Part shown: positions 1-33,849 of the stretch, in pieces | How the letters are laid out: the number at the start of each line of letters is the position of its first letter | Position numbering within the stretch: the first letter of the stretch is position 1 | Source: Methylosinus sp. Sm6 | GTDB lineage: Bacteria; Pseudomonadota; Alphaproteobacteria; Rhizobiales; Beijerinckiaceae | NCBI RefSeq assembly: GCF_019802345.1 | Contig: NZ_JAINDZ010000040.1 | Location: 1-40,817, forward strand | Reading direction: 5' to 3' | Length of the DNA: 40,817 nt | The notes under the pieces: generated by a model | The model's database searches: none | Seen by the model: the letters and a program-made list of their open reading frames with translations, nothing else | Told to the model about the DNA's origin: nothing | Program-made: the position numbers and the translations under genes

Positions 1-743
1 TGGACGATGAGCCGGATGTCGAAGGCGAAACTTCTGAGCGTCGCGAGGCTGCCGGATTTTTGATGCAGATGCGGGATGTCGAAGCTCCAGCCCTGCTTCT
101 GGCGGCCGGCGTGCTTGCGGGCGACGCGATAGAGCCAGCGCTCGACGCCGCCCGTCAGCCGGAAATAGGCAGGATCGATGGCGAGCACGAGCGATCGGTC
201 GATGACGCCGCGGTAGAACCATTCCGGGAGGACGAACTCCATGCCTTCGACGCGGCCGCCGCGCGTCACGCACTCCTCCCATTCGTTGATCCAGGAGAAT
301 TGGCTGCGACGCCAATGCTCGCCGTTGCGAATGGTGGTGCAGATAGCGGTCGATTGCAGGCGGGTGAGCGCGCCTTTCAGCAGCTTGTAGTCACGAGCGC
401 CGGTCGCCCGTCCGACCGCCTTGAGGAGTTGATAGGGCGTGAAGCGCAGAAAGCGGGAGGTCGTGAGGCCATGGTTCTCGGCCTCGACGATCTGGCTTGC
501 CGCCCAGATCAGCACGTCGGCGTCCCAGATGGTCGCCATGCCGTGCTCGGGCATGGCGAAGACTTCCACGCGCGCGCCGGCCGCCTCGTAGAGGATCGGC
601 GCCGTGCGCTTCGCCTTGGCGAGCGAGAAGAAGGGCCGCTCCATGAGATCGCGCTGATCGCGCGGCGAAGCGTCCCCCGTCGCGATGACGAAGGGGTGGA
701 GCCGGCTTCGCTCGCTCGAGATGACGGGGAGGTGGCGCGGCAT
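1..743 (-). CDS. Replication initiator protein A (RPA family), C-terminus cut by window edge
   Basis: I translated the minus strand from the ATG at 743 and the frame stays open to base 1, giving about 247 residues of an incomplete protein. The sequence reads like the plasmid/ICE replication initiator RPA family: an N-terminal MERPFFSLAKAKRT segment, then SRFLRFTPYQLLKAVGR, and YRVARKHAGRQ near the visible end. Proteins of this family sit beside parA and conjugation genes in Rhizobiales plasmids and ICEs and are thought to start replication of the circular form. An in-frame stop four codons upstream fixes the start at 743. The gene begins 12 bp after the HTH gene ends and is probably co-transcribed with it. 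The long open frame on the opposite strand (60-1028) is a shadow. Confidence 0.85.
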   Translation of the reverse strand, partial: MPRHLPVISSERSRLHPFVIATGDASPRDQRDLMERPFFSLAKAKRTAPILYEAAGARVEVFAMPEHGMATIWDADVLIWAASQIVEAENHGLTTSRFLRFTPYQLLKAVGRATGARDYKLLKGALTRLQSTAICTTIRNGEHWRRSQFSWINEWEECVTRGGRVEGMEFVLPEWFYRGVIDRSLVLAIDPAYFRLTGGVERWLYRVARKHAGRQKQGWSFDIPHLHQKSGSLATLRSFAFDIRLIV

Positions 744-755
744 GGCGGCGTCGCC

Positions 756-1040
756 TCAGCGGTGGGAGTTCAGGCGGGCGATGCGCACGCCGGTGTCGAA
801 CCGGACGGCGTCGCGCGCTTCGACATATTGCGGATCGGATGTCGAGCGACAGGCGGCCCCATCGGCCCAGGCCTGCAGATCCTCGATCGCATAGACGACG
901 CGCCCGCCGAGCTTGCGGAATGTCGGGCCGGCGCCGTGACAGCGGTATTTTTCGAGCGTGCGCGCGGAGAGGCTGAGCATTCGCGCGGCTTCATGCGTCC
1001 GGACGAAGCGCGTGGCGCCCTCGGGTGATTTGTCGCGCAA
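756..1040 (-). CDS. Excisionase-like HTH protein (RdfS-like recombination directionality factor)
   Basis: This 94-aa protein has an HTH_17/MerR-like helix-turn-helix at about residues 14-58 (THEAARMLSLSARTLEKYR, then GGRVVYAIEDLQAW), typical of DNA-binding excisionases. The start is a TTG at 1040-1038 preceded by GGAGG at a good distance; no ATG is available upstream. It is followed closely by the RPA initiator gene. In the ICEMlSymR7A family the small HTH protein RdfS heads such an operon, is switched on by FseA, and directs the integrase towards excision. The position next to an fseA-like gene supports that role, but RdfS identity is inference from size, fold and neighbours. It could instead be an ordinary regulator of the replication gene. 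Confidence 0.75.
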   Translation of the reverse strand: MRDKSPEGATRFVRTHEAARMLSLSARTLEKYRCHGAGPTFRKLGGRVVYAIEDLQAWADGAACRSTSDPQYVEARDAVRFDTGVRIARLNSHR

Positions 1041-1210
1041 GAGACGCCTCCGTAGCGGTGAGGTGCGCCGCAGGGACGTCGCGGCGTTTCGAGATCACCG
1101 TGGCGGAGAAGAGAAGTGCAGGGGGAGGACGAAGTTTTGGGGCCGATCCGTGTCCCCCCTTCCGCGAGGCGCGCCGGGATGTCCAAGGAGACGGACAATG
1201 CGGAAGGTCA

Positions 1211-1994
1211 TCAGCCGCCGCGAAGCAGCCGCTTGTAGCCGCCGTCCATTAGCGCGATGGAATCATGGATGAGACGGTTCGCCTTGCGGCGCGTCGCCGA
1301 GCTCTTCCACTCGAGCGCGGGAAGCGCAGCGTCCTCGGCGTCGATCAGGGCCGCGGCGATGTCGCGTGGCCCTGCGCCGCCGAGCCGAAAGTCGAGCGCG
1401 TGGAGCAACAGGATGAGACGCGCGCGTCGCTGCGCGGTCAATTGTAGCGCTCGAGGTAGCGGCCCTGCCGCCCCGCCCTGAAGGAGCCGAACGAGTCGGG
1501 ACGCGCTTTCGAGCCGGATTTCGAGTGACGCGTCGAGCGGCAAAATGATCGCGGGACGGCTCGGCGCGCGTTCGTTCATCCAGAGATGAATCTCGCCTCG
1601 GGCGTCGCCGATCACGACCCGCCTGTCCCCCTCGGCGGACATGTCCGCGACGACCTTGCCGAAGGCGGTCGGATCGAAGGTCCCATCCGCCGCGAAGCGG
1701 GGCGGCGCCGAAGCGATGATCAGCGTGCCGGGGTCGACCTCAGGGAGCCAGAGCGCTGGCTCCCTTCCTGCCGGAGATTCCGGGTCATGAGCGAAATTGC
1801 AACCCCCAGCGACGCGCGAGGCTCGACAGCGCGGTCGTTTCGTCGACGGCGCCGCGTTCAATCCGCCTCAGCGTCTCGCGATAATCCTGGCGATATTTGG
1901 GGTTCCGGCGCAGGAATTCGAGCGCGAAACCGGAAGGGGTGAGCTCGTTCAATTGCTTGATGGAATCGGGAGTTTTCCAAAAATTCGTCGGCAT
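1211..1994 (-). CDS. fseA: FseA-like excision activator made by +1 ribosomal frameshift (DUF6499 + DUF2285)
   Basis: Two overlapping frames encode one protein. Frame one starts at the ATG at 1994 and gives 69 residues with a DUF6499 domain, ending WGLQFRS-stop at 1785. Frame two carries the DUF2285 part down to 1211. The join is the UUU codon at 1796-1794 followed by C. Slipping one base to UUC (1795-1793) continues as AHDPESPAGREP and gives a 260-aa product. Family knowledge: in ICEMlSymR7A, genes msi172 and msi171 are joined by +1 slippage of tRNA-Phe from UUU to UUC to make FseA, the activator of rdfS. The domains, frame relation and slip codon agree here. The alternative is two separate proteins, the second starting at 1861, but that start has no convincing function and residues 1-20 of that frame are just the antisense of good coding sequence. 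A sequencing error is less likely given the known mechanism. Confidence 0.82.
1793..1796 (-). promoter_or_regulatory. +1 programmed frameshift site (UUU-C) in fseA-like gene
   Basis: On the minus strand the codons read TGG GGG TTG CAA TTT CGC TCA TGA. The UUU at codon 67 is followed by C, so tRNA-Phe can re-pair with UUC after a +1 shift. The zero-frame stop is two codons further on. Translation in the new frame enters the DUF2285 protein without any gap in similarity (GLQF then AHDPE). The same UUU-to-UUC slip is established for FseA of ICEMlSymR7A. No strong Shine-Dalgarno-like stimulator or downstream hairpin is obvious by eye. Confidence 0.8.
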
Positions 1995-2132: not shown

Positions 2133-2396
2133 CTATTGCGCGCGCGTGCCCAAAAGCTGCCGATAGCCGGCCGCGGACATCCATCTCGCTCTGGCCAAAT
2201 GGCTTTCATGGATGATCTTCGCCCGTTCCGGCTCGCGATCCGGATCGATCCCGAAAATCACCGCGACGACCTCGCGCCAATCGGCGCCTTCTTCGGCCGC
2301 GTCCAGCAGTCGCAGGTAGATCGTGAGGTGACGTTCGTCGTAGGCGTTCACGTGCTCGGTGAGAGGCGGACGATCTTCGAAGGCTGGCGTGTTCAT
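2133..2396 (-). CDS. qseM: QseM-like antiactivator (single-domain DUF2285 protein)
   Basis: This 87-aa protein is almost entirely one DUF2285 domain: NAYDERHLTIYLRLLDAA, then WREVVAVIFGIDP, then SHLARARWMSAAGYRQLL. The same pattern appears in degraded form at the end of the FseA-like protein. In ICEMlSymR7A the small DUF2285 protein QseM binds and blocks both TraR and FseA, holding excision and transfer off. Here it lies between the fseA-like gene and a divergent XRE regulator, the qseM-qseC arrangement. No traR is visible in the window, so which activators it binds here is unknown. The start at 2396 is the first ATG of the conserved region. Confidence 0.82.
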   Translation of the reverse strand: MNTPAFEDRPPLTEHVNAYDERHLTIYLRLLDAAEEGADWREVVAVIFGIDPDREPERAKIIHESHLARARWMSAAGYRQLLGTRAQ

Positions 2397-2623: not shown

Positions 2624-2851
2624 ATGGAAATAGAGGAGGTCATAGCTACGAATGTGCGCCGCCTGCGTAACGCCAGGAACTGGACGCAGGAAGCGCTTGC
2701 CGAGAAGGCGCAGCTGAGTTCTCGCTATGTCGGTGCGATCGAGCGCGCCAATGTGTCGGCGAGGGTGGGTATTATAGGGCGGATCGCCGATGCTTTCGGC
2801 GTAGAGCCCGCCGATCTTCTCAAGCGCAGCAAACCGAGAACCCGTGGTTGA
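2624..2851 (+). CDS. qseC: QseC-like XRE-family repressor
   Basis: This 75-aa protein is one Cro/C1-type HTH domain: NVRRLRNARNWTQEALAEKAQLSSRYVGAIER followed by a dimer helix with FGVEPADLLK. It is divergent from the QseM-like gene, with the perfect palindrome immediately upstream. In ICEMlSymR7A, QseC represses qseM and controls itself, giving a bistable switch that decides which cells become transfer-competent. No clear ribosome binding site precedes the ATG at 2624 (the palindrome ends at 2602), so the transcript may have a very short leader. The role is inferred from arrangement and family. Confidence 0.8.
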   Translation: MEIEEVIATNVRRLRNARNWTQEALAEKAQLSSRYVGAIERANVSARVGIIGRIADAFGVEPADLLKRSKPRTRG

Positions 2852-4248: not shown

Positions 4249-4997
4249 GGGCATCCCTTCCGGACTCTCATCCGTTCAGACCGTGAAAGCCAGCTCTCAG
4301 CAGACAATGGAAGCTCGTTCAATTCCGAACGTACGACGGACCAATTTGGGTAAAGGCGATCCAAGTGCTGGAAGAACGCCTTGGTATGCTTGGTTTCAAT
4401 CAGGTGGATCATCTCATGCACAATCACGTATTCGAGCATATCGCGCGGCTTCTTGGTCAGTTCGGTGTTGATTCTGATCGTCCTGCGCTGAGGGTTGCAG
4501 CTTCCCCATTTTGTCTTCATCCGCTGCAGGAAGTAGCCGCGAACTTTCACACCGATGCGGGCTTCCCACTTGCGGATCATCTCGGGAATCGCGTCGTGAA
4601 GAAGTCCCAGATGCCATTCGTGCATGATGCGCGCTCGCTGGTCCCGGGTGGTTCCTGGCCGCACCTGTAGATGGATCGTCCGGTGATCAACTTTGATCGT
4701 CGGCTTCTCGTCTCGCTCGGTCAGCTTCAGGAGATGCCTGCGGCCCCAGAGATAATGGGTTTCGCGCCCGCTGTATTGACGCGGCGCCTCGCGCGCCTGC
4801 TTCGCGAAGCGGTCGCGTTGCTGCCTGATCCAGCCAATGCGCGTGATCGCGTAGGCCCTCGCAATGTCTAATCTCGTTGCTGTTGGCGCGACAAGGGTCA
4901 CGCGCCCGTCAGGCGGATGGACAGACAGATGGACGTTTTTCACGTCCTTCCGCGTCACACTGATCGCGATATCGCCGAGTTGAATGAGTTCAGCCAT
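4245..4997 (-). CDS. YgjP-like M48 metalloprotease (DUF45) of type I restriction locus
   Basis: This 250-aa protein has the YgjP/DUF45 (SprT-like) signature: the KTKWGSC motif at about 161-167 and the zinc site HEMIH at 194-198, with a further histidine in TKH at 204. The ATG at 4997 overlaps the hsdR stop (ATGA), so translation is probably coupled; the 40 codons of upstream open frame lie inside hsdR and are not used. Genes of this family are repeatedly found next to hsdR. In E. coli, HsdR is controlled by ClpXP proteolysis, so a dedicated protease might limit the nuclease subunit, but that is a guess here. Confidence 0.88.
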   Translation of the reverse strand: MAELIQLGDIAISVTRKDVKNVHLSVHPPDGRVTLVAPTATRLDIARAYAITRIGWIRQQRDRFAKQAREAPRQYSGRETHYLWGRRHLLKLTERDEKPTIKVDHRTIHLQVRPGTTRDQRARIMHEWHLGLLHDAIPEMIRKWEARIGVKVRGYFLQRMKTKWGSCNPQRRTIRINTELTKKPRDMLEYVIVHEMIHLIETKHTKAFFQHLDRLYPNWSVVRSELNELPLSAESWLSRSERMRVRKGCP

Positions 4998-7900
4998 CAA
5001 TACCCCGGCTGGTTCTTGATGATTTCGAACATGGCGAGAGTTGCGTCGCGGTCTCGATTGAACAATGGGAACAACACGTTTTTGACCTCCCGCTCCCGGA
5101 CTGCGTCGCCTTTCCATCCGGCAGGAGCGTACTCGCGAACTGTGCGATCGATTTCCAGCGCCAGCTTCGCCTTTTCGTCGTCATCGGTCGGACAGGTGAA
5201 GCTGCTCGCCAGGATCGAAGCCAGATTGTTGAAGATCACCGTGGCCTCTCGGTTTCCATGAAGCGCTGCCGGCACGCCGTCGCTTTGGGTCTTGGCCGCT
5301 AGACGCTTGATGAGGTCCTCGGCATTTCGCAAGAACTCTTCATAGGACTCGGCGCTCTCGCGGGTTTGCCTGATCAGATCCTCCAAGAGTCGAGACATCT
5401 CATCGTAAAAGCGCGGATCGGTCAGTTGATCACGAATAATCGTTTTCCGAATGTTGTTGATAATGCCCTCAGCGACCGCGTTCTTCGAGAGCTTGCCCTT
5501 TTCGTTCAACTGCCTCGCGATGGCGTCGTGTATGCCCGTCTCAATGATCGCCTGCGTCAGGGAAACGCCTGAAAGGCTTCCGAGGGCCTGCGCCGGATCG
5601 GCCTGGATGTACGTGTTGAGAAGATGCCGCATATCAGCCTCGTACGGCTTGATATCGAGCTCTTCCCCGGAGTGTTTTTTGATGGCCGCGCGTAGATCTG
5701 AGTAAAGTTCCACCTCGCGCAGGATTGCGGCCTGCGCCATCGCATCGTATCCGGCTTCCTCGAGGTTCTGGGCGACCGCCGCATAGGCCCTCACGAAAGA
5801 CGCGACCGCCTTGTAGAAGGATATTCGAAGCGCCTCCGTCTCGTCGAGCGCGTTCGGATTGGCCACATCGCCGCAGAAGTAGCGAAGATACTGCTCGATT
5901 TCCTTCGGGGGTGGCACCTGATCGCAGAGGTAATGCAAGGCCTCCCGGGCAGCGTCGAGACGGGCCTTGCCTTCTTCCAGCCAGCCCTTGATCTCGACGT
6001 TATTGTCGCCGCCGCTGCCCTGATCGATATCGAGTTCATCCGAGCTGTAGACCGCGATGGCGTGCTGGACGTTCCCAAAAAGCTCCTTGAAATCGACGAT
6101 GTGACCAAAGATCTTGTCGTCGCCGTCGATCCGGTTGGTCCGGCAAATCGCCTGGAACAGCGTGTGATCACGCAGCTTGTCGTCGAGATAGATGTAGGTG
6201 CAGCTCGGCGCATCGAAGCCCGTGAGCAGCTTCGAAACGACGATCAGGAGCTTTGTGTTCGCCGGCTCCTCGATGAAGCGGCGCTTGATCTCGGTTTCGT
6301 AGGCGGTCGTGCTCTGGCCGCTCTTGAGGACGAACTTGGTGTAGGTGTCGAATTTGTAGCGCTCGTCGCTGTTGGCCGGTTCCCTTGAGATCGCATTGTG
6401 GTTCGGCTCGAAGGACGTGACGATCCCGACATGCGGGCCGAGCCGGGTGTTCTGGAACTCGCGGAAATACTCGCATGCGTCGCGGATCGAAGAGGCCACC
6501 AGAATGGCGGTCCCGCGGTCGTCGCTTAGGCGCGGTTTCAGATCGAAGTCCTGGACGATCTCGGCCACGATTCGCCGCTTGCGTTCGGTCGCGCTGAGCA
6601 ATTCCTCCATGGTCGCCCAACGCTTCCGAAGCACGGCCTTCTGGAAGTTGTTCAGCCCCTTGGTCTTCTTCTCGAACCAGGCATCGATGGCGGTCGGGTT
6701 CGTCATGCGCTGAGGCACGTCGCGCGCTTCGTATTTCAGATCGAGGACGACCTTGTCGCGCACGGCCTCCTGGAACTTGTAAGTGTGGATATAGGTGCCG
6801 AAGACCTCGCGGGTCGTCTTGCTGTCCTTCTGAAACAGCGGCGTGCCGGTGAAGCCGACGAAGATCGCGCCTTCGAGCCAGCGCTTCATCTGCTTGTTCA
6901 TGTCGCCGCTCTGGGTGCGGTGGCATTCGTCGACAAACACGTAGAAGCGACCGGTCACCCGCGGCGGCGGGCCGGAAAGGTCGGTGGAATCGAACTTGTG
7001 AATCAGTGCGCAGATCAGCCGCGGCGACGGCGTCCCCAGCCAGCTGACGAACTCGTCGCGGCGAGTGACGCGGGGCGACGGCGCCTCCGACCCGAGCACG
7101 CCCGCGTTGCGCATCACGCCTGCGATCTGCTTATCGAGTTCGTCGCGGTCGGTGACGATCAGCACCCGCGCATCGGGCTCGCGTTCCAGAATCCATTTGG
7201 CGAGCAACACCATGAGGATGCTCTTGCCCGAGCCTTGCGTGTGCCAGATCACGCCGCCCTCGTGCCGGGCCAGGCGTTCCTGCGCCAGCTTCAGGCCGGT
7301 GAACTGGTGATGCCGCGGCACCTTTTTGATGCCGGCGTCGAAGATCACGAAGTTGCGGATCAGATCGAGTAGCCGCTCCTTGTGCAGAAGTTGGCCCATC
7401 GGCCGGTCAAGAAGCGCGCCAGCAGGGAGTTCGCCTTCGGGCGGGTTTTCATCGCGCCATTCGACAAACAGGGTTTCGGGCGTGCCGATGGTGCCATAGC
7501 GTAGGCCCTGCGCATCGCTGGCCGCCAGCAGAAGCTGGGCGGTGGCGAAAAACGGTGCGTTGAAAATCTCGTCCTGATTGGAAATCAACTGGCGGACGCC
7601 ATCGCCGATCTCGACCGCGGCGCGCTTCAATTCGGTCACCGCGACAGCGAGCCCGTTGAGATAGACGACGAGATCGGGGCGCCGCTCGTGCCCGCCCTTC
7701 AACGTCACTTCTTCGGCCAGGGCGAAGTCGTTGGCGTCGGCGTTTTCCCAATCGATCAGGTGCACCTTTTTGAAGGGCGCGCTGACGGAGGTTTGCACAT
7801 CTACGCCATAGCGCAGCAGCGTGTAGGTCTTGAGGTTCGCCTGATAAAGCGTCGTGCCGGTGACCTCGATCGCCTGCATCAAACGGGTGAGCGCCGCATC

Positions 7901-8092
7901 GATCTCCGGCTTGGAATAGCCGCGGGCGGTGAGGTTGGCGCGCAGAAGTTCCGGCTCGACGCAGCGGTTGCCCGGCCGGCCCGACCAATCGCCGAGCTCC
8001 CGATAGCCGAGGCCGTCCGCAGCTTTTGCTTTGGTGATGAAGGCGGCGAGACGATTTTGCGTGACGCGTTCGCTGCGTGGGCGGTCAGGCAT
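4997..8092 (-). CDS. hsdR: Type I restriction enzyme, R subunit (nuclease/translocase)
   Basis: This 1031-aa protein is the DNA translocating and cutting subunit. The N-terminal nuclease domain has the PD-(D/E)xK residues D140, E154 and K156 (RRPD... TELK). The motor has Walker A HTQGSGKS with K290, DECH at 388-391, the VGFTGTPL motif, and QAICRTNR as motif VI. Length and domain order are normal and the frame is intact, so the enzyme is probably active. I place the start at MPDRPRSE (8092), because the ten upstream codons are an arginine-rich stretch within hsdS. The start overlaps the hsdS stop by 8 bp. Confidence 0.93.
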   Translation of the reverse strand: MPDRPRSERVTQNRLAAFITKAKAADGLGYRELGDWSGRPGNRCVEPELLRANLTARGYSKPEIDAALTRLMQAIEVTGTTLYQANLKTYTLLRYGVDVQTSVSAPFKKVHLIDWENADANDFALAEEVTLKGGHERRPDLVVYLNGLAVAVTELKRAAVEIGDGVRQLISNQDEIFNAPFFATAQLLLAASDAQGLRYGTIGTPETLFVEWRDENPPEGELPAGALLDRPMGQLLHKERLLDLIRNFVIFDAGIKKVPRHHQFTGLKLAQERLARHEGGVIWHTQGSGKSILMVLLAKWILEREPDARVLIVTDRDELDKQIAGVMRNAGVLGSEAPSPRVTRRDEFVSWLGTPSPRLICALIHKFDSTDLSGPPPRVTGRFYVFVDECHRTQSGDMNKQMKRWLEGAIFVGFTGTPLFQKDSKTTREVFGTYIHTYKFQEAVRDKVVLDLKYEARDVPQRMTNPTAIDAWFEKKTKGLNNFQKAVLRKRWATMEELLSATERKRRIVAEIVQDFDLKPRLSDDRGTAILVASSIRDACEYFREFQNTRLGPHVGIVTSFEPNHNAISREPANSDERYKFDTYTKFVLKSGQSTTAYETEIKRRFIEEPANTKLLIVVSKLLTGFDAPSCTYIYLDDKLRDHTLFQAICRTNRIDGDDKIFGHIVDFKELFGNVQHAIAVYSSDELDIDQGSGGDNNVEIKGWLEEGKARLDAAREALHYLCDQVPPPKEIEQYLRYFCGDVANPNALDETEALRISFYKAVASFVRAYAAVAQNLEEAGYDAMAQAAILREVELYSDLRAAIKKHSGEELDIKPYEADMRHLLNTYIQADPAQALGSLSGVSLTQAIIETGIHDAIARQLNEKGKLSKNAVAEGIINNIRKTIIRDQLTDPRFYDEMSRLLEDLIRQTRESAESYEEFLRNAEDLIKRLAAKTQSDGVPAALHGNREATVIFNNLASILASSFTCPTDDDEKAKLALEIDRTVREYAPAGWKGDAVREREVKNVLFPLFNRDRDATLAMFEIIKNQPGY

Positions 8093-9374
8093 GCGCAGCC
8101 TCCTTCGTGTGCGGCGCCTCATCGCGCCGAACCGGCAAGCGCACGCGCCCAGTGAGCAGCGCCTGCATCATCGCCTGCTTGAGCGCGAGGGTCTTGTCGA
8201 AGCGGGTTTCAAGGGCGGAGATTTCGGCGTCCATATCCGAGAGCACGCCTGCAATAGCGGCTTGTTCGTTCTCGTCTGGTACGCTGATCTCTATCGCGGC
8301 AAGCGCCAGCGCCCCGATATGGACCACGGCGTCGCCCTGGCCCTTGTTGGCCTTCTGACGCACCACGTGCGGCGTGTTCAAGAGGTAGCCTAGAAATACT
8401 GGATCGCCGCTGGTCGGGCGCAGGATAATGATATCGCCGCCAGCATAAGCTTCAACATCATGGGCGAGCGCGACACACTTCCCAATCTCTTCCTTCGTCT
8501 CACCAGAAGCGGCGAAAAGTATATCGCCGCGCTGAATCCGCGTCGCACTGTGAGCCACGGCGCGCGAGATGTACGAGGCAAAGTGACGAACAACGTTTTG
8601 GTGCGTTGTGTAGATTTCCCCATACCGAACGCAAGGGATGTCTCCCGACTGCGCTTCGTCGCGGCGCACACCGCTACCCTTCATAAACCGACCAAGTGCT
8701 CCCAGCCGCTTCTCCTGCCACGGGGCGGTAAAGCCCGGCAGGCGGGTCTGGCCGGTGAGCAGGCGTTGCATCGCGCCTTGCCGCAGATCGCGCTTCTTGG
8801 CGATCAGGTGAGACAGCGCTGAGGTCAGATCCTCGATCTCTGACAACGCACAGGCGATCTCCTTTCGCTCCGCCTGAGAGGAAGGCATTGCAATTGCGAA
8901 CTTCCGAACGGCAGAAATTGAAAATTCAAGACGGGTGGTGCCTACAACTGCATCGTTTATTCTACGTTGAGTGTGGTTGCCCTCAAGTTGACACATAACG
9001 AAACGCGGGTATTCCTCGTTCTTGATGCGCAGACGGGCGATTTCTCGGGCAATGTTTCCCTCGAAATGGTCCGGAACTATGCCTACTCGCCCAATGGTAC
9101 CCTTCACTGAAAGCAGGACATCACCGGCACAAATCCTACTTCCCGCAAACCTCGCTTCTATAGATCTTGCTGATCTTGGGAGTGGTGCTGACGATATCTC
9201 CTTTATGAACTTTATTGGAACGATTGGAATCCCGCTTGGCGTGTCTGAGCCAATTTGCACGACACCATACCTAATGGGAGCTCTTGGATCGGTGATACTT
9301 TCGAGCGTCACGACCAGCCAATCCTCTGGGATTACGCCAATCGCGGTTGTCTTGTATCCGGGCCTCAGTGCCAT
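8085..9374 (-). CDS. hsdS: Type I restriction enzyme, specificity subunit
   Basis: This 429-aa protein has the two-half layout of HsdS. The first target-recognition domain covers about 1-165. A conserved helix follows, ending KRDLRQGAMQRLLTGQTRLP. The second recognition domain covers about 220-370, and a second copy of the helix ends LALKQAMMQALLTGRVRLP. The duplicated helices set the gap between the two half-sites of the DNA target, and the recognition domains fix the bases. The target cannot be read from the sequence. The ATG at 9374 overlaps the hsdM stop by 10 bp, and the gene end overlaps hsdR, so the three subunits are translationally coupled. Confidence 0.92.
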   Translation of the reverse strand: MALRPGYKTTAIGVIPEDWLVVTLESITDPRAPIRYGVVQIGSDTPSGIPIVPIKFIKEISSAPLPRSARSIEARFAGSRICAGDVLLSVKGTIGRVGIVPDHFEGNIAREIARLRIKNEEYPRFVMCQLEGNHTQRRINDAVVGTTRLEFSISAVRKFAIAMPSSQAERKEIACALSEIEDLTSALSHLIAKKRDLRQGAMQRLLTGQTRLPGFTAPWQEKRLGALGRFMKGSGVRRDEAQSGDIPCVRYGEIYTTHQNVVRHFASYISRAVAHSATRIQRGDILFAASGETKEEIGKCVALAHDVEAYAGGDIIILRPTSGDPVFLGYLLNTPHVVRQKANKGQGDAVVHIGALALAAIEISVPDENEQAAIAGVLSDMDAEISALETRFDKTLALKQAMMQALLTGRVRLPVRRDEAPHTKEAAHA

Positions 9375-11842
9375 GTGGCCCCCATCGCCTTAAGGTGACT
9401 GGCGACACGCGCGGCCAACAAATCGACCTTTTCCTCCAGCTTCGGCAGCGGCTTCTCGTAGCGCTCGGCCAGCTCACGCACGCGCGTCGTCAGGGACTGC
9501 GCCACGCGCGCGACTTCGCCGCCGACCCGCTCATCGATTGTAGCCAGCCATTTGTCGGCCACGACGAGGGTCTTCACCTCGTCGTCCGTGAGCGCGGCGT
9601 AGCGGGCGTGAACCTTGGCGAAAAGCTTTTCCTCCGCCGCCTTGCGCTTCTTCTTGGTCTCGTCGAAATTGTCGATCAGCGCCTGATAGGCGAGCAGAGC
9701 TTCTCGCTCGTCGGCCAGATCGGCGTCGCGCCCGATCTCCTTCAGCCGCGCTTTGATCGCCTTGGCCGTGATCTTCTGCTTCTCGCCTTCGCCTTCGATC
9801 ACCTCGGCGAGCAGCCCGTCCTCGCCCGCACCTTCTTCAAGCTTCTCGGCCATCTTCTGTTCGAGTTCGGCCATGCGCGCGTCAAGCGCATTGATCACTA
9901 ACTGATCTGCCGCGAAGTAGCGGGCGATGATCAGGCGCGACGGCGCCAGATCGGACGTGAAGCGGCGCTTACCGACCTGGTAATCGCCGGGCTCGGGCCA
10001 GACCAGCTTGCCCTCCTTGTTCTTGCGCTTGATGATTTCGCGTGGACGCACGCCTGCCGCCCAGCCGACGGCAGCAATCAGATACGCGTCGTCCTGCATC
10101 GACTCGGCCCAGTAGTCCATCAGGTGCTGATAGACGTCGTAAGGGTCGACGAGCGGTGCCTTGCGGAAGACTTCGAGCAAGTCCTCCGATAGAGCCTCGA
10201 TGAATTCCTTCGGGTGTCCGCCGGGACCGAAGGCTCGCGCCGCGGCTTCCGTCCGCGCGCGCCAGGCGGCGAAGGTGTCGCCAGCGGCCTTGGTGAAAGC
10301 CTGAAACTCGGGATGGCCTTCGATCGTGGGCTTCACCTCGCCGACCGGCAACGTGAGCGACAGATATCCCAAGCGCAGATCGGCGAAGAGCTTGCCGCGA
10401 AGGGAGGGCATAACCTTCCACCACGCCGAAAGCGCCTCGATATCACGAGCCGGAATGCCGCCGTTCAAATGGGCGTCGATATCGTGGATGTCCTCGGCTT
10501 CGGAACTGTCGATATAGCGCGGCAGGTTGAGGTTATAGGCGTTCTTCGGGTCCGCGATCTCGTCATGGGGAACCATACGGGCGTAGCCGGGCACGTCGAC
10601 GACGCGCGCAAAGGTATCGACGATGCGATGGATGTCCTGCTCGCGCAGCCGGTTCTTCGGGCCGTCCTTGCGGAAGCCCTTCGAGGCGTCAATCATGAAC
10701 ACGCCGCGCCGGGTGGCGGCGTTCTCTTTGTCGAGCACGACGATGCAGGCGGGAATGCCCGTGCCATAGAAGAGGTTCGGCGGCAGGCCGATGATGCCTT
10801 TCAGATAGCCGGACTTGACCAGCGCCTCGCGGATCTCGGCCTCGGCGTTTCCACGGAACAGCACGCCATGCGGCAGGATGCAGGCTGCCTTGCCGGTGCT
10901 CTTCATCGAGCGGATGATATGGAGCAGATAAGCGTAATCGCCCTGCTTGCGGGGCGGTGCGCCCCAGCTGAAACGCGCGTGCGGGTCGCGCGCAGTATCG
11001 ATGCCGTTCGACCACGCCTTGTCCGAAAAGGGCGGATTGGCAACCACGTAGTCGTATGTGCGGAGTCGGTCACCATCGAGGAATTTCGGGCTGGCGAGCG
11101 TGTTACCGGCGATAATCTTCGCGGTCGGAAAGTCGTGCAGGATCATATTCATACGGGCGAGACCGGCCGTGGTCACGTCCTTTTCCTGACCCTCGAGCGT
11201 TATGCGCTTTCCTGCCTCGGCAGCCACCTTCAGCAACAACGATCCCGAGCCACATGTGGGGTCGTAGGCGGTCGTGCCCGCGACCGTGTTCTTCGGCGAG
11301 ATGCCGATCACCTTAGCAATGATGCGGCTGACTTCCGACGGGGTGTAGAACTGGCCCTTGCTCTTGCCGCTCTCCGTCGCGAAATGCCGCATCAGATATT
11401 CATAGGCATCGCCCAGAATGTCGTCATGATCGGCCCGGTTCTTGGAGAAATCGAGATCTGGGCTTTCAAAGATCGCCACGAGGTTCGTGAGACGCTCGAT
11501 GCGATCATTGCCGTCCCCGAGTTTGTTCGGGTCGTTGAAATCAGGAAAATCTGTGCGCGCTAAGCTTTCGTTGCTGTCGACCAGGGGCTGAATGATCTGC
11601 GTGTTGATCAGATCCCCGATGTTCGGATTGCCCTTGAGGGCGATCATGTCGTCGAAGCTGGTGCCTGGCGGGATTGTGATTGGCGGCGCTAGATCGTCAC
11701 TCTTTGCGTACTTGTCGGAAACATATTTGATGAACAGCATGAAAAGGACGTAGTCCTTATACTGGCTAGCATCCATTCCGCCGCGCAACTCATCGCACGA
11801 CGCCCAAAGAGACGAATAGAGATCCGACTTTTTTACTGCCAT
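9365..11842 (-). CDS. hsdM: Type I restriction enzyme, N6-adenine methyltransferase subunit
   Basis: This 825-aa protein methylates adenine in the host target and, with HsdS, gives immunity to HsdR. The SAM-binding motif DPTCGSG is at 194-200 and the catalytic NPPF at 269-272. The N-terminal helical domain (MAVKKSDLYSSLWASCDELRGG) is typical. The ATG at 11842 has GGAAG about 8 bases before it; the 76 upstream codons of open frame have no such support. The protein is longer than the usual 500 or so residues. Roughly residues 540-825 form a charged, mostly helical extension with probable coiled coils (AELEQKMAEKLEEGAGEDG), as seen in one HsdM subgroup. Confidence 0.92.
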   Translation of the reverse strand: MAVKKSDLYSSLWASCDELRGGMDASQYKDYVLFMLFIKYVSDKYAKSDDLAPPITIPPGTSFDDMIALKGNPNIGDLINTQIIQPLVDSNESLARTDFPDFNDPNKLGDGNDRIERLTNLVAIFESPDLDFSKNRADHDDILGDAYEYLMRHFATESGKSKGQFYTPSEVSRIIAKVIGISPKNTVAGTTAYDPTCGSGSLLLKVAAEAGKRITLEGQEKDVTTAGLARMNMILHDFPTAKIIAGNTLASPKFLDGDRLRTYDYVVANPPFSDKAWSNGIDTARDPHARFSWGAPPRKQGDYAYLLHIIRSMKSTGKAACILPHGVLFRGNAEAEIREALVKSGYLKGIIGLPPNLFYGTGIPACIVVLDKENAATRRGVFMIDASKGFRKDGPKNRLREQDIHRIVDTFARVVDVPGYARMVPHDEIADPKNAYNLNLPRYIDSSEAEDIHDIDAHLNGGIPARDIEALSAWWKVMPSLRGKLFADLRLGYLSLTLPVGEVKPTIEGHPEFQAFTKAAGDTFAAWRARTEAAARAFGPGGHPKEFIEALSEDLLEVFRKAPLVDPYDVYQHLMDYWAESMQDDAYLIAAVGWAAGVRPREIIKRKNKEGKLVWPEPGDYQVGKRRFTSDLAPSRLIIARYFAADQLVINALDARMAELEQKMAEKLEEGAGEDGLLAEVIEGEGEKQKITAKAIKARLKEIGRDADLADEREALLAYQALIDNFDETKKKRKAAEEKLFAKVHARYAALTDDEVKTLVVADKWLATIDERVGGEVARVAQSLTTRVRELAERYEKPLPKLEEKVDLLAARVASHLKAMGATWH

Positions 11843-12263
11843 GCGTCGCTTCCCGAGCTGAACTGCGATATCTGCGACTTCAAAAAGCGCGATTCGCCGT
11901 CCCCATTTTTGACCACCATAAACGGCGACGCCGACGACGCGAAGGGGCGGCCAGTGTTGTGCAGCATTTTCTAGGCCGCGCGTTTGCTGCGCCCGGTCGC
12001 TTGCACTTCTCTCGCGCGGCTGGATCGTGTTTCTGAATGGCCCGAAATAACGGACACGGCGTGGACACAAGGGAAAGCCCCTTTGGCGAGAGCTAAATCG
12101 AACGTCGCATAAGCAATTGAATATCTTATAGTTTTGTTGCGAGAGCCAGATGTGAGCTAACTACCTTCAGGTTATGAGCCTAACGATCGCCAGCTGGGTC
12201 GTTTTTTCGCGTTCGCGGATCGTGGCCCTACCCGGAAAGCGATGCTCGGAATTTGCAGGGGGA
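11843..12263. other. Intergenic stretch upstream of hsdM
   Basis: I see no gene in this stretch. It must carry the promoter for the leftward restriction operon. An A+T-rich patch near 12110-12140 (minus strand CTATAAG) is the best candidate -10 region, but no convincing -35 pairs with it. The upstream open frame joined to hsdM (to 12070) lacks a ribosome site and looks non-coding. A GTGGACACA sequence at 12061 resembles the repeated GTGGACACC beside the tRNA at 33687-33706, which may be chance. Confidence 0.4.
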
Positions 12264-26099: not shown

Positions 26100-29000
26100 G
26101 TGACAATTTCGCCCCTGCAGAACTGGCTTGAAAGGCTCGGCTATGCCGCCGAGCCCGCCGTGCTGCATCGCCGGGGTGACGACGTCCCGGAAGTTCACCC
26201 CTATGCACTGGAAATCAAGTCGCTCCTGAAGCCGGATGGGTTGATTCGCGCCCAAGCCGTATTCGAGGTGGAGGGCGTGCCGACGGTGGTCTTTGTCGGC
26301 GACAAGGACGAGCCGCTCACCGCCGCCGCCTTGGACGAGATACGTAAGCGGATCTGGAATCAGAATCTCGCCACGGTGGTGATCGAGATCAAGGGCGAGA
26401 CGGCAGTTGCCGTGCCGGCCCGAAAACTCCGCAACGCGGAGGAAACGCTGACGTTCGGCGCAGCGCGTCCCGACGGGCCATTCTCGGCGTTCGACATCGC
26501 TTCAGCCAATCTCTCCCGCCGCGCACCCAAATGGTTCGACATCAAAGCGCGCGTCGACCGCAAGTTGCTCGTCAATCTCTCCAGCGCCGTACTCAAGCTG
26601 TCGAGGGTCGGGTTCCGGGCAGCCATAGAGGCGTCGCTGCGGCGACGTCACGCCGAGTTGCTGATGGGGCAGGTGCTCTTCATCTCATATCTCGAACATC
26701 GCGACATCGTCGGCGCGACCTATCGCCAGAGGCGTGAAGTCGGTCAACTCCATGCTCTGGTCGCTCGCGCCAACCGCAATGGGGTTCGCAGCCTCATCGA
26801 TGCGCTCCGTCAGGATTTCAACGGCGACTTCTTAGGGGACGATCGGCATAATCCCTGGGCGGCGTTGAACACGGAGGGGTTCGCGCTGCTCGATCAATTC
26901 CTGCGCCGGACCGACATGACGACCGGGCAGGGCGATTTTTGGAATTACGATTTCAGCTATATCCCGGTTGAACTGCTGTCTGGCCTCTACGAATCTTTCC
27001 TGTCTCCAGACCAGAAGGCAAAAGACGGCGCTTACTACACGCCGCGTCATCTCGCGATGCTGGCGGTTGATCAAGCGTTCGTCACCTCGGCTGATCCTCT
27101 CTCCGAGACAATCTTCGACGGAGCCTGCGGATCCGGAATTCTGCTTACCACGGCCTACCGGCGTCTCATCGCGCTGTCGGAGGCGCGCGGCGGCCGCCAA
27201 CTCAGTTTCAGGCAGCGTCGAGAGCTTCTGATCAATCGCATATTCGGCGCCGACATCAATCTGATGGCTTGCCGCGTCACGGCCTTCAGCCTCTATCTGT
27301 CGTTGCTGGAAGGTCTCAACCCCGCTGATATCATGGAGGCGCAGGAGCGCGAAAACGAGAAGCTGCCATCGCTCGACGGCAGCAATCTGCGCCATGGCCC
27401 CACGGCAGACTTCTTCGGACCCAAGCACGGCTTTGCGGACAAGCGCTTCTCTCTCATTATCTCCAATCCGCCGTGGTCGGAGCCCGAAGGCGAAGACGTC
27501 ACGTCCGCCGACGTTTGGGCGGAGCGGGCCGGCGCCCCATTCGTTCGACGCCAGATCGCCGGCGCCTATGCCCTGAGAGCGATCGACTTCCTGGCCGAGC
27601 AGGGGCGCGTCTGCCTCATCCTGCCGATTGGACAATTTTTGGGACCGTCCAGCGCATCGTTCGTCGCGCGCCTGTTCAGCTTGTTCCGACCGGCGCGTCT
27701 CATCAACTTCGGCGATCTTCAAGGATTGCTGTTTCCGACGGCCGAGAACACCTGCCATGTGTTCCTCGGGCAACGCCGAAGCGTCGAGGCGCAGATTCCA
27801 TTTGGCGAGACTTTCGACTACTGCGTGCCGAAGGCGGACATGAGTCTGGCCTTTGGCCGGCTCACCATGCAGTCGGCCGATCGGCACGTTTTGCAAACCC
27901 GCTCCGTCGCCCAGGATCCGCAGCTTCTCGTCACGCTGATGTGGGGCGATGCCAACGATATGACTCTGTGGACGCGCCTGACGGCGCGCGGAACGTTCAG
28001 CGACTTCTGGAAAAGGCCGCAACCATTCCGGCGATGGGTCAATCGCAAAGGCATTCATCTTAACGACAAGAGCCGCACCGCGGTCAGCGCCGGCCGGTTG
28101 CGCAAGATGCGGTTCGTGCCCGTACCCGCGCTCAGCGCGGGGTCGCCCGTGCTGCATCCCGATCTCTTGAAGCCGTGGCCGCGGGCGCAGACGACTGTCG
28201 TTGGTCTCAACGACGAGGTGATGGCGGTTTTCGACGGTCCCCGCGTGCTCTTCCCGGACGGGTTCTCGAAACTCGAACATACGGTCCGCGCAGTATATTA
28301 CGATGGCCCGGCCACCTTCACGCATAGCATCGGCGTCATTTCCGGATCGACCCAGGATGCGGCGCTGCTCCAGTTCGCCGCGGTCTATCTGCGATCCAAG
28401 CTCGCCCGTTACTTCCTCATGATGCGCGGCTGGAAGATGCTCTGCGAACGCAACGGCGTCCATCTGTCCGATGTCGAAACCTTCCCGTTCTTTGACATCG
28501 AAGCGGCGCCCGATCCGAAGGCGGCTAAAGCGGCGCTCGCAAGGGTCGGCACCTATATGCAAGAGCTATCCGATTTGCCGGAACTCGATCAACGCCGTCG
28601 CTACGGCGAAATCCAGAATGCCCTCGACAAGGCCATCTTCAAGTATTTTGGCCTGAACGAGAGCGAGCAGGCGCTGGTTCGCGAAACCGTCGACATCCTG
28701 ATGCCTTCGATCCGGCCACGAAGCTTCAAAAGTCTCGACACGCCGGCCCAAGCCACCGCTCATCTGGAGGATTTTCGGACATACGGCGAGGCGCTGGCTG
28801 CCTCCTTGACCTCTTGGCGCGAACGGACCGGTGGCGGTGGCCGGTTTCACGTCGCCGTTGTGGCCAGTGATCCGGCTCGCCAAGGCCCGTCGGGAATCGT
28901 TCGGGTGAGCTACGCCAAAGAGACAACCGCGCCGGCCACTTCCAGCGCTCAGCTCAATGACGATCTGGTCCTGACGACGCTCGCTCAACTTCGCGCAGCG

Positions 29001-29198
29001 GGGCTGATGGCGATTTCATCGGGCGATGCCCTTCAACTTATCCCCGATGCACATGTTTGGACTGACGGGGCGCTCTATCTGGTGCGCCCATTGTCTCGAC
29101 GCAGTTGGACCGTGCGGCAGGCGCTTCGCGATGCGGAGCACATCGTACGGTCTGTTCAGAGCCGGCTGTCGCCCGCGATCCGCCCGGAGGTCGCGTGA
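26100..29198 (+). CDS. Large N6-adenine DNA methyltransferase
   Basis: This 1032-aa protein carries an N6-adenine methylase core: FDGACGSGILL at 339-349 (SAM binding) and SNPPW at 455-459 (catalytic). GAYYTPRHLAMLAVDQAF precedes motif I, as in type I/IIG and BREX-type enzymes. Residues 1-130 form a separate domain (LEIKSLLKPDGLIRAQAVFEV, VPTVVFVGDKDEP) that resembles an inactive nuclease-like or DNA-sensing region without obvious catalytic residues. The long C-terminal part (about 600-1032) probably reads the DNA target. The GTG start at 26100 has GGAAGGGA upstream. Its stop overlaps the nuclease start (GTGA). It is not PglX: no PglZ, BrxC or BrxL is nearby. Confidence 0.87.
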   Translation: MTISPLQNWLERLGYAAEPAVLHRRGDDVPEVHPYALEIKSLLKPDGLIRAQAVFEVEGVPTVVFVGDKDEPLTAAALDEIRKRIWNQNLATVVIEIKGETAVAVPARKLRNAEETLTFGAARPDGPFSAFDIASANLSRRAPKWFDIKARVDRKLLVNLSSAVLKLSRVGFRAAIEASLRRRHAELLMGQVLFISYLEHRDIVGATYRQRREVGQLHALVARANRNGVRSLIDALRQDFNGDFLGDDRHNPWAALNTEGFALLDQFLRRTDMTTGQGDFWNYDFSYIPVELLSGLYESFLSPDQKAKDGAYYTPRHLAMLAVDQAFVTSADPLSETIFDGACGSGILLTTAYRRLIALSEARGGRQLSFRQRRELLINRIFGADINLMACRVTAFSLYLSLLEGLNPADIMEAQERENEKLPSLDGSNLRHGPTADFFGPKHGFADKRFSLIISNPPWSEPEGEDVTSADVWAERAGAPFVRRQIAGAYALRAIDFLAEQGRVCLILPIGQFLGPSSASFVARLFSLFRPARLINFGDLQGLLFPTAENTCHVFLGQRRSVEAQIPFGETFDYCVPKADMSLAFGRLTMQSADRHVLQTRSVAQDPQLLVTLMWGDANDMTLWTRLTARGTFSDFWKRPQPFRRWVNRKGIHLNDKSRTAVSAGRLRKMRFVPVPALSAGSPVLHPDLLKPWPRAQTTVVGLNDEVMAVFDGPRVLFPDGFSKLEHTVRAVYYDGPATFTHSIGVISGSTQDAALLQFAAVYLRSKLARYFLMMRGWKMLCERNGVHLSDVETFPFFDIEAAPDPKAAKAALARVGTYMQELSDLPELDQRRRYGEIQNALDKAIFKYFGLNESEQALVRETVDILMPSIRPRSFKSLDTPAQATAHLEDFRTYGEALAASLTSWRERTGGGGRFHVAVVASDPARQGPSGIVRVSYAKETTAPATSSAQLNDDLVLTTLAQLRAAGLMAISSGDALQLIPDAHVWTDGALYLVRPLSRRSWTVRQALRDAEHIVRSVQSRLSPAIRPEVA

Positions 29199-29902
29199 TA
29201 ACCGGACAAGATTGGCTTTCTGCCTTCCCGATCCGCCCTGCAACCGACGCAGTCGATGCCCTGCGGGAGAGCTGGCGAATACTCGCCGCACAACCGAGAG
29301 CCCATTTCCATCCGGGAATGAAAGAGCCCACCCTCACCAAGGCTCTCAAGGCCTATGTCGAAAACGTCACTGCTCGGGAGCGCGGCTTGCTTGGTATGTG
29401 GGCCGCCGAAGGCGTCCTTCACAACATCGATTTGGAAACAGCAAAGCTCACCCAGGAACGCCGCACGGACATCGTCTATGGATGGAATGACGATACTCGT
29501 CGCATCGAACTGGTATTCGAATTCAAGAAAGTAGGCCGGCAGAAGAGTCATCGCACCCATTACCTGCGCGAGAAGGGGCTAGGTCGTTTTGTCACCGGCA
29601 TCTACAGCCGCCGACAAGCAGTTGCGGCGATGGTCGGCATCCTGATCGATACGGAGGACGAGGTGGTCCCGCCGCTGCGCGACGCGCTTGCCGATGCGAG
29701 CCTTGTCGCGGAACTGAAGATCCGGCCAACCGCGGCGGGCAGTTCCTACGAGCGACCTTCAGTATTATTTTCAACCGCAGACTTCGACACGGAACACGAA
29801 CGCGACCCCGATCTGGCGCCGAGCCACGGCACCATTCGCGTCGCCCATTTCTTTCTGGCTTTCGGCTATCCCACCAGCACCAAGAAGCCAGCAAAGTCTT
29901 GA
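29195..29902 (+). CDS. PD-(D/E)xK nuclease coupled to the adenine methylase
   Basis: This 235-aa protein shows a PD-(D/E)xK arrangement: RRTDIVYGWN with D92, then IELVFEFKK with E109 and K111, and a possible helical glutamate in KEPTLTKAL (E44). It starts at the GTG at 29195, overlapping the methylase stop; the upstream 30 codons of open frame lie within the methylase. The coupling suggests it is the cutting partner of a split restriction enzyme whose methylase gives both recognition and protection. I do not recognise a named family. Cleavage activity and need for the methylase are inference. Confidence 0.7.
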   Translation: MITGQDWLSAFPIRPATDAVDALRESWRILAAQPRAHFHPGMKEPTLTKALKAYVENVTARERGLLGMWAAEGVLHNIDLETAKLTQERRTDIVYGWNDDTRRIELVFEFKKVGRQKSHRTHYLREKGLGRFVTGIYSRRQAVAAMVGILIDTEDEVVPPLRDALADASLVAELKIRPTAAGSSYERPSVLFSTADFDTEHERDPDLAPSHGTIRVAHFFLAFGYPTSTKKPAKS

Positions 29903-29927
29903 GCCGAAGGTTTCGCCCTCTCGACGA

Positions 29928-31115
29928 TCAATCAGCGAGGTTGAAAGACGCCGGTCGTCCGTTCCAGCGCCTATATCCCTTCGATCCGTCCCAATAGGAC
30001 ACCGTCCCATCGATAATATTGCGCTTCACGCGCCAGACGGTGTCGGCATTTTGCATCGCGAGGGCAGTTTGGTCGAATACCGGCACTTCAAAGCCAGCCT
30101 GCCCGTAGCCGTCGTGGGATACAATCTGCTTCGGCAGCGCCATCAACAGGGCAGCATGCTTTGTCTCCTTGATGACAAGCGCGAAACTGTTCACCGTCGT
30201 GTTGTAGCCGTAGGTCGCGTGAACGACGCGATGGTCTGCAACTCGGGATACGTCAGCGACAATGCGGCTGACGTGAGGTTTTGACACCAGAAGGGATTTG
30301 TCTGCGATGATTCCGGCCGATGCGGTTTCGCACCACGTGGCGACGTCCCGTGATGCGGCTAACGCCATTGCGCCGGACGTCCTTGCGGCGAACCGCTTTG
30401 CCACCGGCTCATAGGCAGACGTCGTCACGAAAAGAGTTTTTTGTGCGCCCTCGACCGCCGCAATGCCATACAACGCCGCGACCGCATCCAGTTGGATCTT
30501 TCGATGCGGGGCGTATTTCTTTGCCTGGACCAACGTGAGAAGATCGCCGATCGGATCGCGTTGCAGCAGCCGGATATCAACGCCGCCATCCCCTCGGCCT
30601 GGTCCCAGCTCCGAGTGAAAGCCCTGATTCTGGAAAATACGATGCAGCAGGATTTCAAACTCGCGCCAGTCGAGACGGTGAAGATCGTCCGGACGCTGCG
30701 CGAAGTGCGCGTACATTTCCTCGTAGACGTCATCGCAGTCGGGTTGGATAAGCGAGCAGACCCACCGCCAATGAAAATATGAATCGAATGCAGACGAGAG
30801 GTGCGGATCAGTCGCAAAAAAGGCGACGCTGCTTCCGTCCTGATTTTCGCATTCAAAACCCAGGCTGTGAACGAGTGCATGAAACTCGTCGTACGATCCG
30901 TCATCGTCGGAGAAGCCGTTGAACAGCGAATGCAGCGGGCCATCGAAACAAAGCAATGACACGATGGCGGGAGAGCCCGGCTCGCCATCGCTGTGTTCTT
31001 CGTAGGTCTGGAAGCCACAATCAAACCAGAGATCTTTGGTCCGCGCCCAGTGCTCGATCGCGGCCTGCAATGCGGACATTTTCGCGATGAGTTCGTGGTC
31101 GCTATACGCTTGCAT
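29928..31115 (-). CDS. Mrr-like restriction endonuclease
   Basis: This 395-aa protein has a central Mrr_cat nuclease domain (about 148-245): REFEILLHRIFQNQGF with E154, GPGRGDGGVDI with D180, and LVQAKKY with Q197-x-K199, the Mrr variant of PD-(D/E)xK. The N-terminal 140 residues are acidic and unfamiliar. The C-terminal 130 residues may form a sensor or adaptor (NTTVNSFALVIKETKHAALL). Mrr enzymes usually cut modified DNA. It is the last gene of a leftward three-gene operon and ends 25 bp from the converging nuclease gene. How self DNA methylated by two resident methylases is spared is unclear. Confidence 0.85.
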   Translation of the reverse strand: MQAYSDHELIAKMSALQAAIEHWARTKDLWFDCGFQTYEEHSDGEPGSPAIVSLLCFDGPLHSLFNGFSDDDGSYDEFHALVHSLGFECENQDGSSVAFFATDPHLSSAFDSYFHWRWVCSLIQPDCDDVYEEMYAHFAQRPDDLHRLDWREFEILLHRIFQNQGFHSELGPGRGDGGVDIRLLQRDPIGDLLTLVQAKKYAPHRKIQLDAVAALYGIAAVEGAQKTLFVTTSAYEPVAKRFAARTSGAMALAASRDVATWCETASAGIIADKSLLVSKPHVSRIVADVSRVADHRVVHATYGYNTTVNSFALVIKETKHAALLMALPKQIVSHDGYGQAGFEVPVFDQTALAMQNADTVWRVKRNIIDGTVSYWDGSKGYRRWNGRPASFNLAD

Positions 31116-33774: not shown

Positions 33775-33849
33775 TGGAGCGGGCGAAGGGATTCGAACCC
33801 TCGACCCCAACCTTGGCAAGGTTGTGCTCTACCCCTGAGCTACACCCGC
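33775..33849 (-). tRNA. tRNA-Gly(GCC), likely integration site
   Basis: The minus strand gives a complete 75-nt tRNA with encoded CCA. The acceptor stem GCGGGTG pairs with CGCCCGC (one G-T pair), the anticodon stem-loop reads AACCTTGCCAAGGTT with anticodon GCC, and the T-arm carries GGTTCGAATCC. It marks the right border of the element: everything to its left on the 3' side is mobile-type cargo, while the genes to the right are ordinary chromosome. A direct repeat of its 3' end was not found in the window. Confidence 0.96.

Follow-up and report, generated by a model that had tools for sequence, protein, structure and literature searches.

The minus strand of positions 1211–1994 in the window, by which we mean the whole 40,817-nt stretch of Methylosinus sp. 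Sm6 DNA analysed here, very probably encodes a frameshifted FseA whose reading frame moves by +1 at a UUU-C tetramer. Judged from its sequence, this gene is the fseA of an alphaproteobacterial integrative element. In ICEMlSymR7A, msi172 and msi171 are reportedly fused through +1 slippage of tRNA-Phe from UUU to UUC to produce FseA, the activator of rdfS, and QseM has been shown in print to block FseA by binding to its DUF6499 domain. Frameshifted activators of this kind are published and widespread, with ~61% of 4709 FseA homologues needing the shift (PMC10359603, excerpt), and the window adds a further, well-supported case. The locus comprises the following features:

1785–1994, minus strand: fseA zero-frame ORF, the DUF6499 half, msi172/rihF1b-like (PF20109, E 1.3e-21)
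1793–1796, minus strand: putative UUU-C slip site (TTTC in 72/81 dereplicated +1 genes)
1797–1799, minus strand: CAA, the E-site codon when UUU occupies the P site (CGA in 44/81 dereplicated +1 genes)
1803–1808, minus strand: Shine-Dalgarno (SD)-like UGGGGG, codons W-G, 6 nt 5′ of UUU (UGGGGG is named in PMC10359603)
1211–1792, minus strand: fseA +1-frame part with a middle region and the DUF2285/HeTH domain, msi171/rihF1a-like (domain match, phase)

The zero frame ends on the minus strand with TGG GGG TTG CAA TTT CGC TCA TGA. ORF1 (1994–1785) measures 69 aa and stops two codons past the slip (TTT at 1796–1794, C at 1793), and translation of the minus strand with a one-base advance after TTT yields 260 residues plus a stop, ending at 1211. 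Profile searches revealed PF20109 (Trans_reg_dom, DUF6499; E 1.3e-21) at residues 6–68 of the 69 in ORF1, where ALEFLRRN matches the AWEFLRRN-like motif expected of the FseA N-terminal DUF6499, and PF10074 (RovC_DNA-bd, DUF2285; E 4.7e-30) in ORF2, with a net charge of +6. ORF2 starts with TTG at 1861, overlapping ORF1 by 77 bp. Translation and domain matches thereby reproduced what the first-pass annotation had described, namely a DUF6499 frame ending two codons past UUU-C, a +1 entry into DUF2285, a 260-aa product and a 77-bp overlap; its reading of the gene as an fseA with a UUU-C slip is further backed by homology, codon conservation and the phase of substitution. The C-terminal DUF2285/HeTH domain would come to lie in one product with DUF6499 by way of the predicted shift, and we infer from these sequence features that frameshifting operates in the Methylosinus host.

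To survey the frame state of relatives, PF20109 was searched for in three partly overlapping genome sets and matched 38 of 149 genomes at family level, 13 of 240 at class level and 43 of 398 at phylum level. The 138 loci fetched around the matches gave 140 DUF6499 domain rows; weaker PF20109 places (G248:C39, G275:C3, G483:C174, G730:C1, G558:C21, G739:C1 and G727:C10) were left out, and the window's own copy (L156) was not counted among the relatives. DUF2285 lay in the +1 frame in 106 rows, was fused in one frame in 28 and fitted neither state in six. Leaving out ten rows without a TGG anchor, four of which scored +1, the 130 Trp-anchored rows comprised 102 +1, 23 fused and five others. TTTC was the slip tetramer in 93 of the 102 anchored +1 rows and TTTT in five. 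Dereplication at 80% retained 81 +1 genes (TTTC in 72, TTTT in five, and CTTC, TGTC, ATTC and ACCT in one each) and 21 fused genes, only one of which had TTTC. The slip codon was thus UUU in 77/81 +1 genes, as expected if slippage of tRNA-Phe requires UUU; the exceptions were CTT, TGT, ATT and ACC (one each), and the gene with ACC possesses a TTTC one codon downstream. A stop codon directly followed the slip codon in none of the 81, and the window has CGC at this place. Among the matches listed from a longer set, 30 loci from another family (three of which repeat genes of the first set) included 29 in the +1 state, all 29 with TTTC; apart from these 30, genome G760 of that set was considered.

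The phase of substitution supports translation of both frames. In 33 gapless pairs from 36 loci of moderately diverged relatives, substitutions at the three codon positions numbered 165/149/346 in the zero frame up to the slip and 123/95/323 in the +1 frame beyond it, third positions being the most affected in either part, and the +1 frame is under purifying selection. The window itself aligned without gaps, and with an equal phase change at the slip, to three loci of the same genus and to the copy that its own genome carries on a second contig. A sequencing error or a pseudogene is therefore extremely improbable as the source of the split frame: two family members (L060 and L106) do run off frame further on, but the junction recurs in these same-genus loci, on the second contig and in 102/130 anchored rows, besides the purifying selection on the +1 frame. 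On the tree, the frame state changes ~10 times, and at least eight times when judged by supported branches. One fused locus, L041, matches the shifted L044 at 781/799 aligned bases and has a one-base difference at the slip. We rejected L041 as a proven natural loss of frameshifting, given that its assembly contains N bases and an error is likely; it was still counted as fused, both in the 23 rows and in the 21 genes left by dereplication. In three other loci with a +1 fseA (L123, L124 and L125), the zero frame stays open for more than 600 nt past the slip, which would furnish the unshifted product with a long tail.

Could the two halves instead be separate proteins, with ORF2 initiating on its own in a manner coupled to ORF1? 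We consider this very unlikely. ORF2 does have its TTG at 1861, some +1-frame start lies 5′ of the slip in 54/102 relatives (ATG in 30), and one of four named plasmid records gives separate, overlapping DUF6499 and DUF2285 CDSs (the other three show no such CDS beside a QseM-type gene in an incomplete gene table). Yet 48/102 relatives lack any +1-frame ATG, GTG or TTG 5′ of the slip, in line with the earlier proposal that the overlap is not needed for initiation, and an SD-like stretch precedes such a start in only nine of 102. Independent initiation is likewise at odds with the constraint on TTT and the codons at the junction, with the existence of fused homologues, and with the failure of either half alone to complement in Azorhizobium (PMC9601964, excerpt). 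The annotated split in that plasmid record exemplifies the expected division by gene callers, a point already in print (PMC10359603, excerpt).

Comparison of codon choice between the two gene classes points to a signal of three parts, i.e. pairing with the anti-SD, usually a CGA before UUU, and UUU-C itself, which fused homologues appear largely to lack. In +1 genes, TTT made up 77/77 Phe codons at the slip (18.2 expected from own-gene codon use), GGG 52/74 Gly codons (9.7), TTG 41/75 Leu codons (7.9) and CGA 44/55 Arg codons before UUU (5.4). Fused genes had a mildly raised GGG (7/20; 2.9 expected), and none of TTG (4/19), CGA (1/11) and TTT (2/6) was raised in these small numbers. The GGG and TTG biases fit pairing with the anti-SD of 16S rRNA: the duplex energy averaged –7.83 over the 81 +1 genes vs. 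–5.32 upon synonymous resampling (z –16.4), and –6.11 vs. –5.70 in fused genes (z –1.1). Seven +1 genes have replaced the Gly, four of them with AGG, which pairs better still, and the others with GAG (moderate) or TGC and AAC (poor). Transcriptional rather than ribosomal slippage as the way in which the frame is restored is hardly conceivable, as the run of three Ts on which it could act is short, and both the upstream codons and the anti-SD pairing are conserved.

Pairing with the anti-SD gives no account of the CGA bias, nor is an A before UUU preferred as such, only one of 26 non-Arg codons at this position ending in A. Bacteria are generally considered to decode CGU, CGC and CGA with one tRNA-Arg(ICG) (PMC10454642, excerpt), for which reason the feature retained at CGA is probably its weak I-A pair. 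CGA is not required, since CAA precedes UUU in the window and CAG in its nearest relatives. The same bias could reflect out-of-frame decoding, in which peptidyl-tRNA-Arg occupies CGA in the P site with its I-A wobble and tRNA-Phe reads the +1 UUC in the A site, giving a peptide identical to that of P-site slippage. CGC and CGU should be read by the same Arg tRNA, so that it is the codon and not the residue that is kept (44/55 Arg codons vs. 5.4 expected), and the consensus GGGGG-UUG-CGA places the SD 3 nt from CGA, which is the spacing of prfB. For such decoding, however, any NUU-C would suffice, and yet UUU is found in 77/81 genes with AUU and CUU in one each; moreover, 26/81 genes have a non-Arg codon at the CGA position, and the window has CAA. 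We thus regard out-of-frame decoding as unlikely, the near-invariance of UUU speaking for P-site slippage.

Under P-site slippage, the core claim of a +1 shift is surer than the finer mechanistic steps that we propose here. UGGGGGU would pair with the 16S anti-SD and hold the ribosome while peptidyl-tRNA-Phe rests on UUU in the P site; as 6 nt separate the SD from the slip codon, compared with 3 nt in prfB, it may act as a pause more than as a push. Upon release of the E-site codon (CAA here, most often CGA in the family), tRNA-Phe would re-pair from UUU to UUC, trading a G-U wobble for a G-C pair, and translation would continue in the DUF2285 frame. Only the shifted product would join DUF6499 to the DNA-binding DUF2285 and could thus activate the rdfS directly downstream, and hence excision. 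The neighbouring QseM homologue is predicted to bind DUF6499 and thereby block FseA that has already been made. As input, a divergent XRE regulator is more probable than quorum sensing, because the host genome (listed as 99.99% complete) gave no match to a LuxR-type receptor (PF03472) in a search whose E. coli control was positive. In this host, the switch probably works without TraR.

The surrounding regulatory module consists of the following features:

2624–2851, plus strand: divergent XRE-family regulator gene, QseC/RihR-like by place and fold family (HTH_3, E 9.2e-12)
2574–2602, no strand assigned: perfect 14-bp inverted repeat between qseM and xre, a candidate operator (sequence)
2133–2396, minus strand: QseM-like antiactivator gene, a lone DUF2285 (PF10074, E 1.8e-8)
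1121–1159, minus strand: conserved inverted repeat upstream of rdfS, a candidate FseA box (window and 14 clade relatives)
756–1040, minus strand: RdfS-like excisionase/regulator gene (HTH_17, E 1.7e-7), the presumed FseA target
3–743, minus strand: replication initiator protein A gene after rdfS, running off the contig (PF10134, E 2e-78)

Transcription on the minus strand would follow the order QseM-like gene, fseA, RdfS-like gene and replication initiator, with the XRE gene diverging from qseM. The QseM-like protein matched PDB entry 7uqt, 'Quorum sensing master protein', with an E of 4.7e-20, and its net charge of –4 makes it acidic, as in the QseM family. A palindrome with a TTCCAGGAA core lies between qseM and xre in some relatives (L034, L054, L055, L056 and L117). 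Downstream of fseA, an rdfS-like match was present in 85/102 +1 loci. The published FseA box is said to consist of two hexamers 15–16 bp apart. The inverted repeat upstream of rdfS was rejected as a family-wide feature and is a clade feature at best, its pattern matching only 6/80 loci. Type I restriction-modification cargo (HsdR, specificity and HsdM domains) occupies 4997–12070 on the minus strand, near the regulatory module, and an N6 methylase/Eco57I-type gene (plus strand) and an Mrr_cat endonuclease gene (minus strand) at 26100–31115 possibly form a second defence cargo.

The apparent integration site of the element is a further feature of the window:

33775–33849, minus strand: tRNA-Gly(gcc) gene, whose 3′ 48–53 bp recur exactly elsewhere in the genome

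A pattern search placed copies of this 3′ end at C94:5456–5477, C85:96232–96253, C85:116216–116237 and C120:13088–13109, and none of these four stretches showed a tRNA gene; a copy at C120:14797–14818 corresponds to a second tRNA-Gly(gcc). Over the 100 bases beyond the tRNA copy, the window agrees with C94 at 72 positions vs. 27–33 at the other places. Immediately ahead of the C85:96232 copy is an integrase domain, and the ORFs scanned in the 40,817-nt window included no integrase. The host genome gave three matches each for fseA, lone DUF2285 and TraG-type genes. This arrangement fits related elements inserted, perhaps as a chain, at tRNA-Gly(gcc) on contigs C97, C94, C85 and C120, one of them with the C94 fseA copy.

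In the family, a lone DUF2285 gene was located upstream on the same strand in 75/102 +1 loci vs. 1/23 fused loci, the latter being the doubtful L041. Ten of the 27 +1 loci without such a QseM possess one downstream on the opposite strand (L018, L019, L020, L023, L025, L029, L037, L038, L103 and L104). By tree row, a lone DUF2285 accompanied 68/82 +1 and 2/21 fused genes, and a wider view of 17 of the 28 fused loci, taken ~10 kb in either direction as far as the contigs extended, revealed it in none. A likelihood test for correlated evolution of frameshift and QseM returned p 0.0015, or 0.00013 without L041, L135 and L132; a test on independent pairs was not significant, with on average 2.1 to 0 of eight pairs, all informative ones pointing in one direction. 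Both tests scored L150 as lacking QseM, its second DUF2285 being assigned to another fused fseA. The lone QseM gene thus often stands beside a shifted fseA and rarely beside a fused one, an association that is suggestive, resting as it does on few independent events, with on average just 2.1 of the eight pairs being informative. A partial literature search found no published test of frameshift against QseM presence. According to the printed stalling idea, the SD-like stretch may stall translation and let QseM bind the nascent DUF6499 (PMC10359603, excerpt), and qseM copies are described on Mesorhizobium ICEs (PMC8627217, excerpt). Tentatively, and with more doubt than belief, we suggest that the frameshift signal and QseM together make up a single co-translational checkpoint, and that elements which have lost QseM tend in turn to give up the frameshift and fuse the gene. 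Under such a checkpoint, the anti-SD pause and the CGA E-site codon would let QseM seize the nascent DUF6499 before DUF2285 exists.

The survey also covered Azorhizobium, for which a contrary statement has been published. At 4.43 Mb, genome G760 (a single contig of 5,369,772 bp) carries fseA, qseM, divergent XRE and tyrosine integrase genes. The integrase gene ends at 4,433,676, i.e. 87.6 kb from position 4,346,061, and the symbiosis region of A. caulinodans ORS571 is described as an integrase-bounded 87.6 kb at a Gly-tRNA at 4,346,061 (PMC2443382, excerpt); because of this agreement, G760 is probably ORS571. Both G760 and the 95% identical locus of A. doebereinerae UFLA1-100 read TGG GGA CTT CGA TTT C, and in both the +1 frame encodes DUF2285. 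The rihF1 frameshift is said to be absent, each ORF having its own start and stop, and transfer was restored by neither half alone (PMC9601964, excerpt). The rihF1 locus thus carries the signal, and the sequence and the failed half-complementation both point to frameshifting there. The Azorhizobium sequence hence speaks against the published statement, and frameshifting would explain why single rihF1 halves do not complement.

What the analysis adds to a known class of activators is the codon-level anatomy of the signal, the link between frameshifting and QseM, a host that apparently lacks quorum sensing, and the Azorhizobium sequence. Frameshift-gated activators help decide the excision and movement of many alphaproteobacterial elements, and annotation pipelines split or miss their genes. 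The anatomy opens direct tests of how a +1 site that lacks a stop codon works, and the QseM association bears on the stalling idea (PMC10359603, excerpt).

Several known systems resemble the locus in part. With RovC, a DUF2285 activator of T6SS genes, ORF2 shares PF10074 and is otherwise distant; searched by sequence against PDB chains, the ORF2 part gave no match at E≤1. In prfB, too, an internal SD is combined with a P-site tRNA that re-pairs to a U-rich +1 codon, but the spacing between SD and slip codon is 3 nt and UGA occupies the A site (PMC12421855, excerpt), compared to 6 nt and a sense codon in the window. FseA of ICEMlSymR7A (Mesorhizobium japonicum) shares with the window gene the DUF6499 and DUF2285 domains, a conserved place for the +1 shift and the SD-like UGGGGG, and its element likewise has a QseM antiactivator and an rdfS-like target. 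The TraR/AHL layer of that system was not found in the window's host, which has no LuxR-type receptor match; furthermore, qseM, fseA and rdfS all lie on one strand in the window, and its element is linked to tRNA-Gly instead of tRNA-Phe. A parallel to this arrangement is offered by ICEAc (rihF1b/rihF1a, rihF2 and rihR), in which fseA and qseM share a strand, the XRE gene diverges and the element is linked to a Gly-tRNA. The first-pass annotation erred in calling the window's element unrelated, as the xre-qseM-fseA-rdfS module is present and the tRNA-Gly-linked ICEAc with xre, qseM and fseA had already been studied. The two differ in that intC adjoins the module in ICEAc, whereas the window has no integrase among the scanned ORFs, and in the published claim that ICEAc lacks the frameshift (PMC9601964, excerpt), whereas the window gene has the +1 layout. 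The slip motif is a shared feature, ICEAc reading TGG GGA CTT CGA TTT C and the window TGG GGG TTG CAA TTT C.
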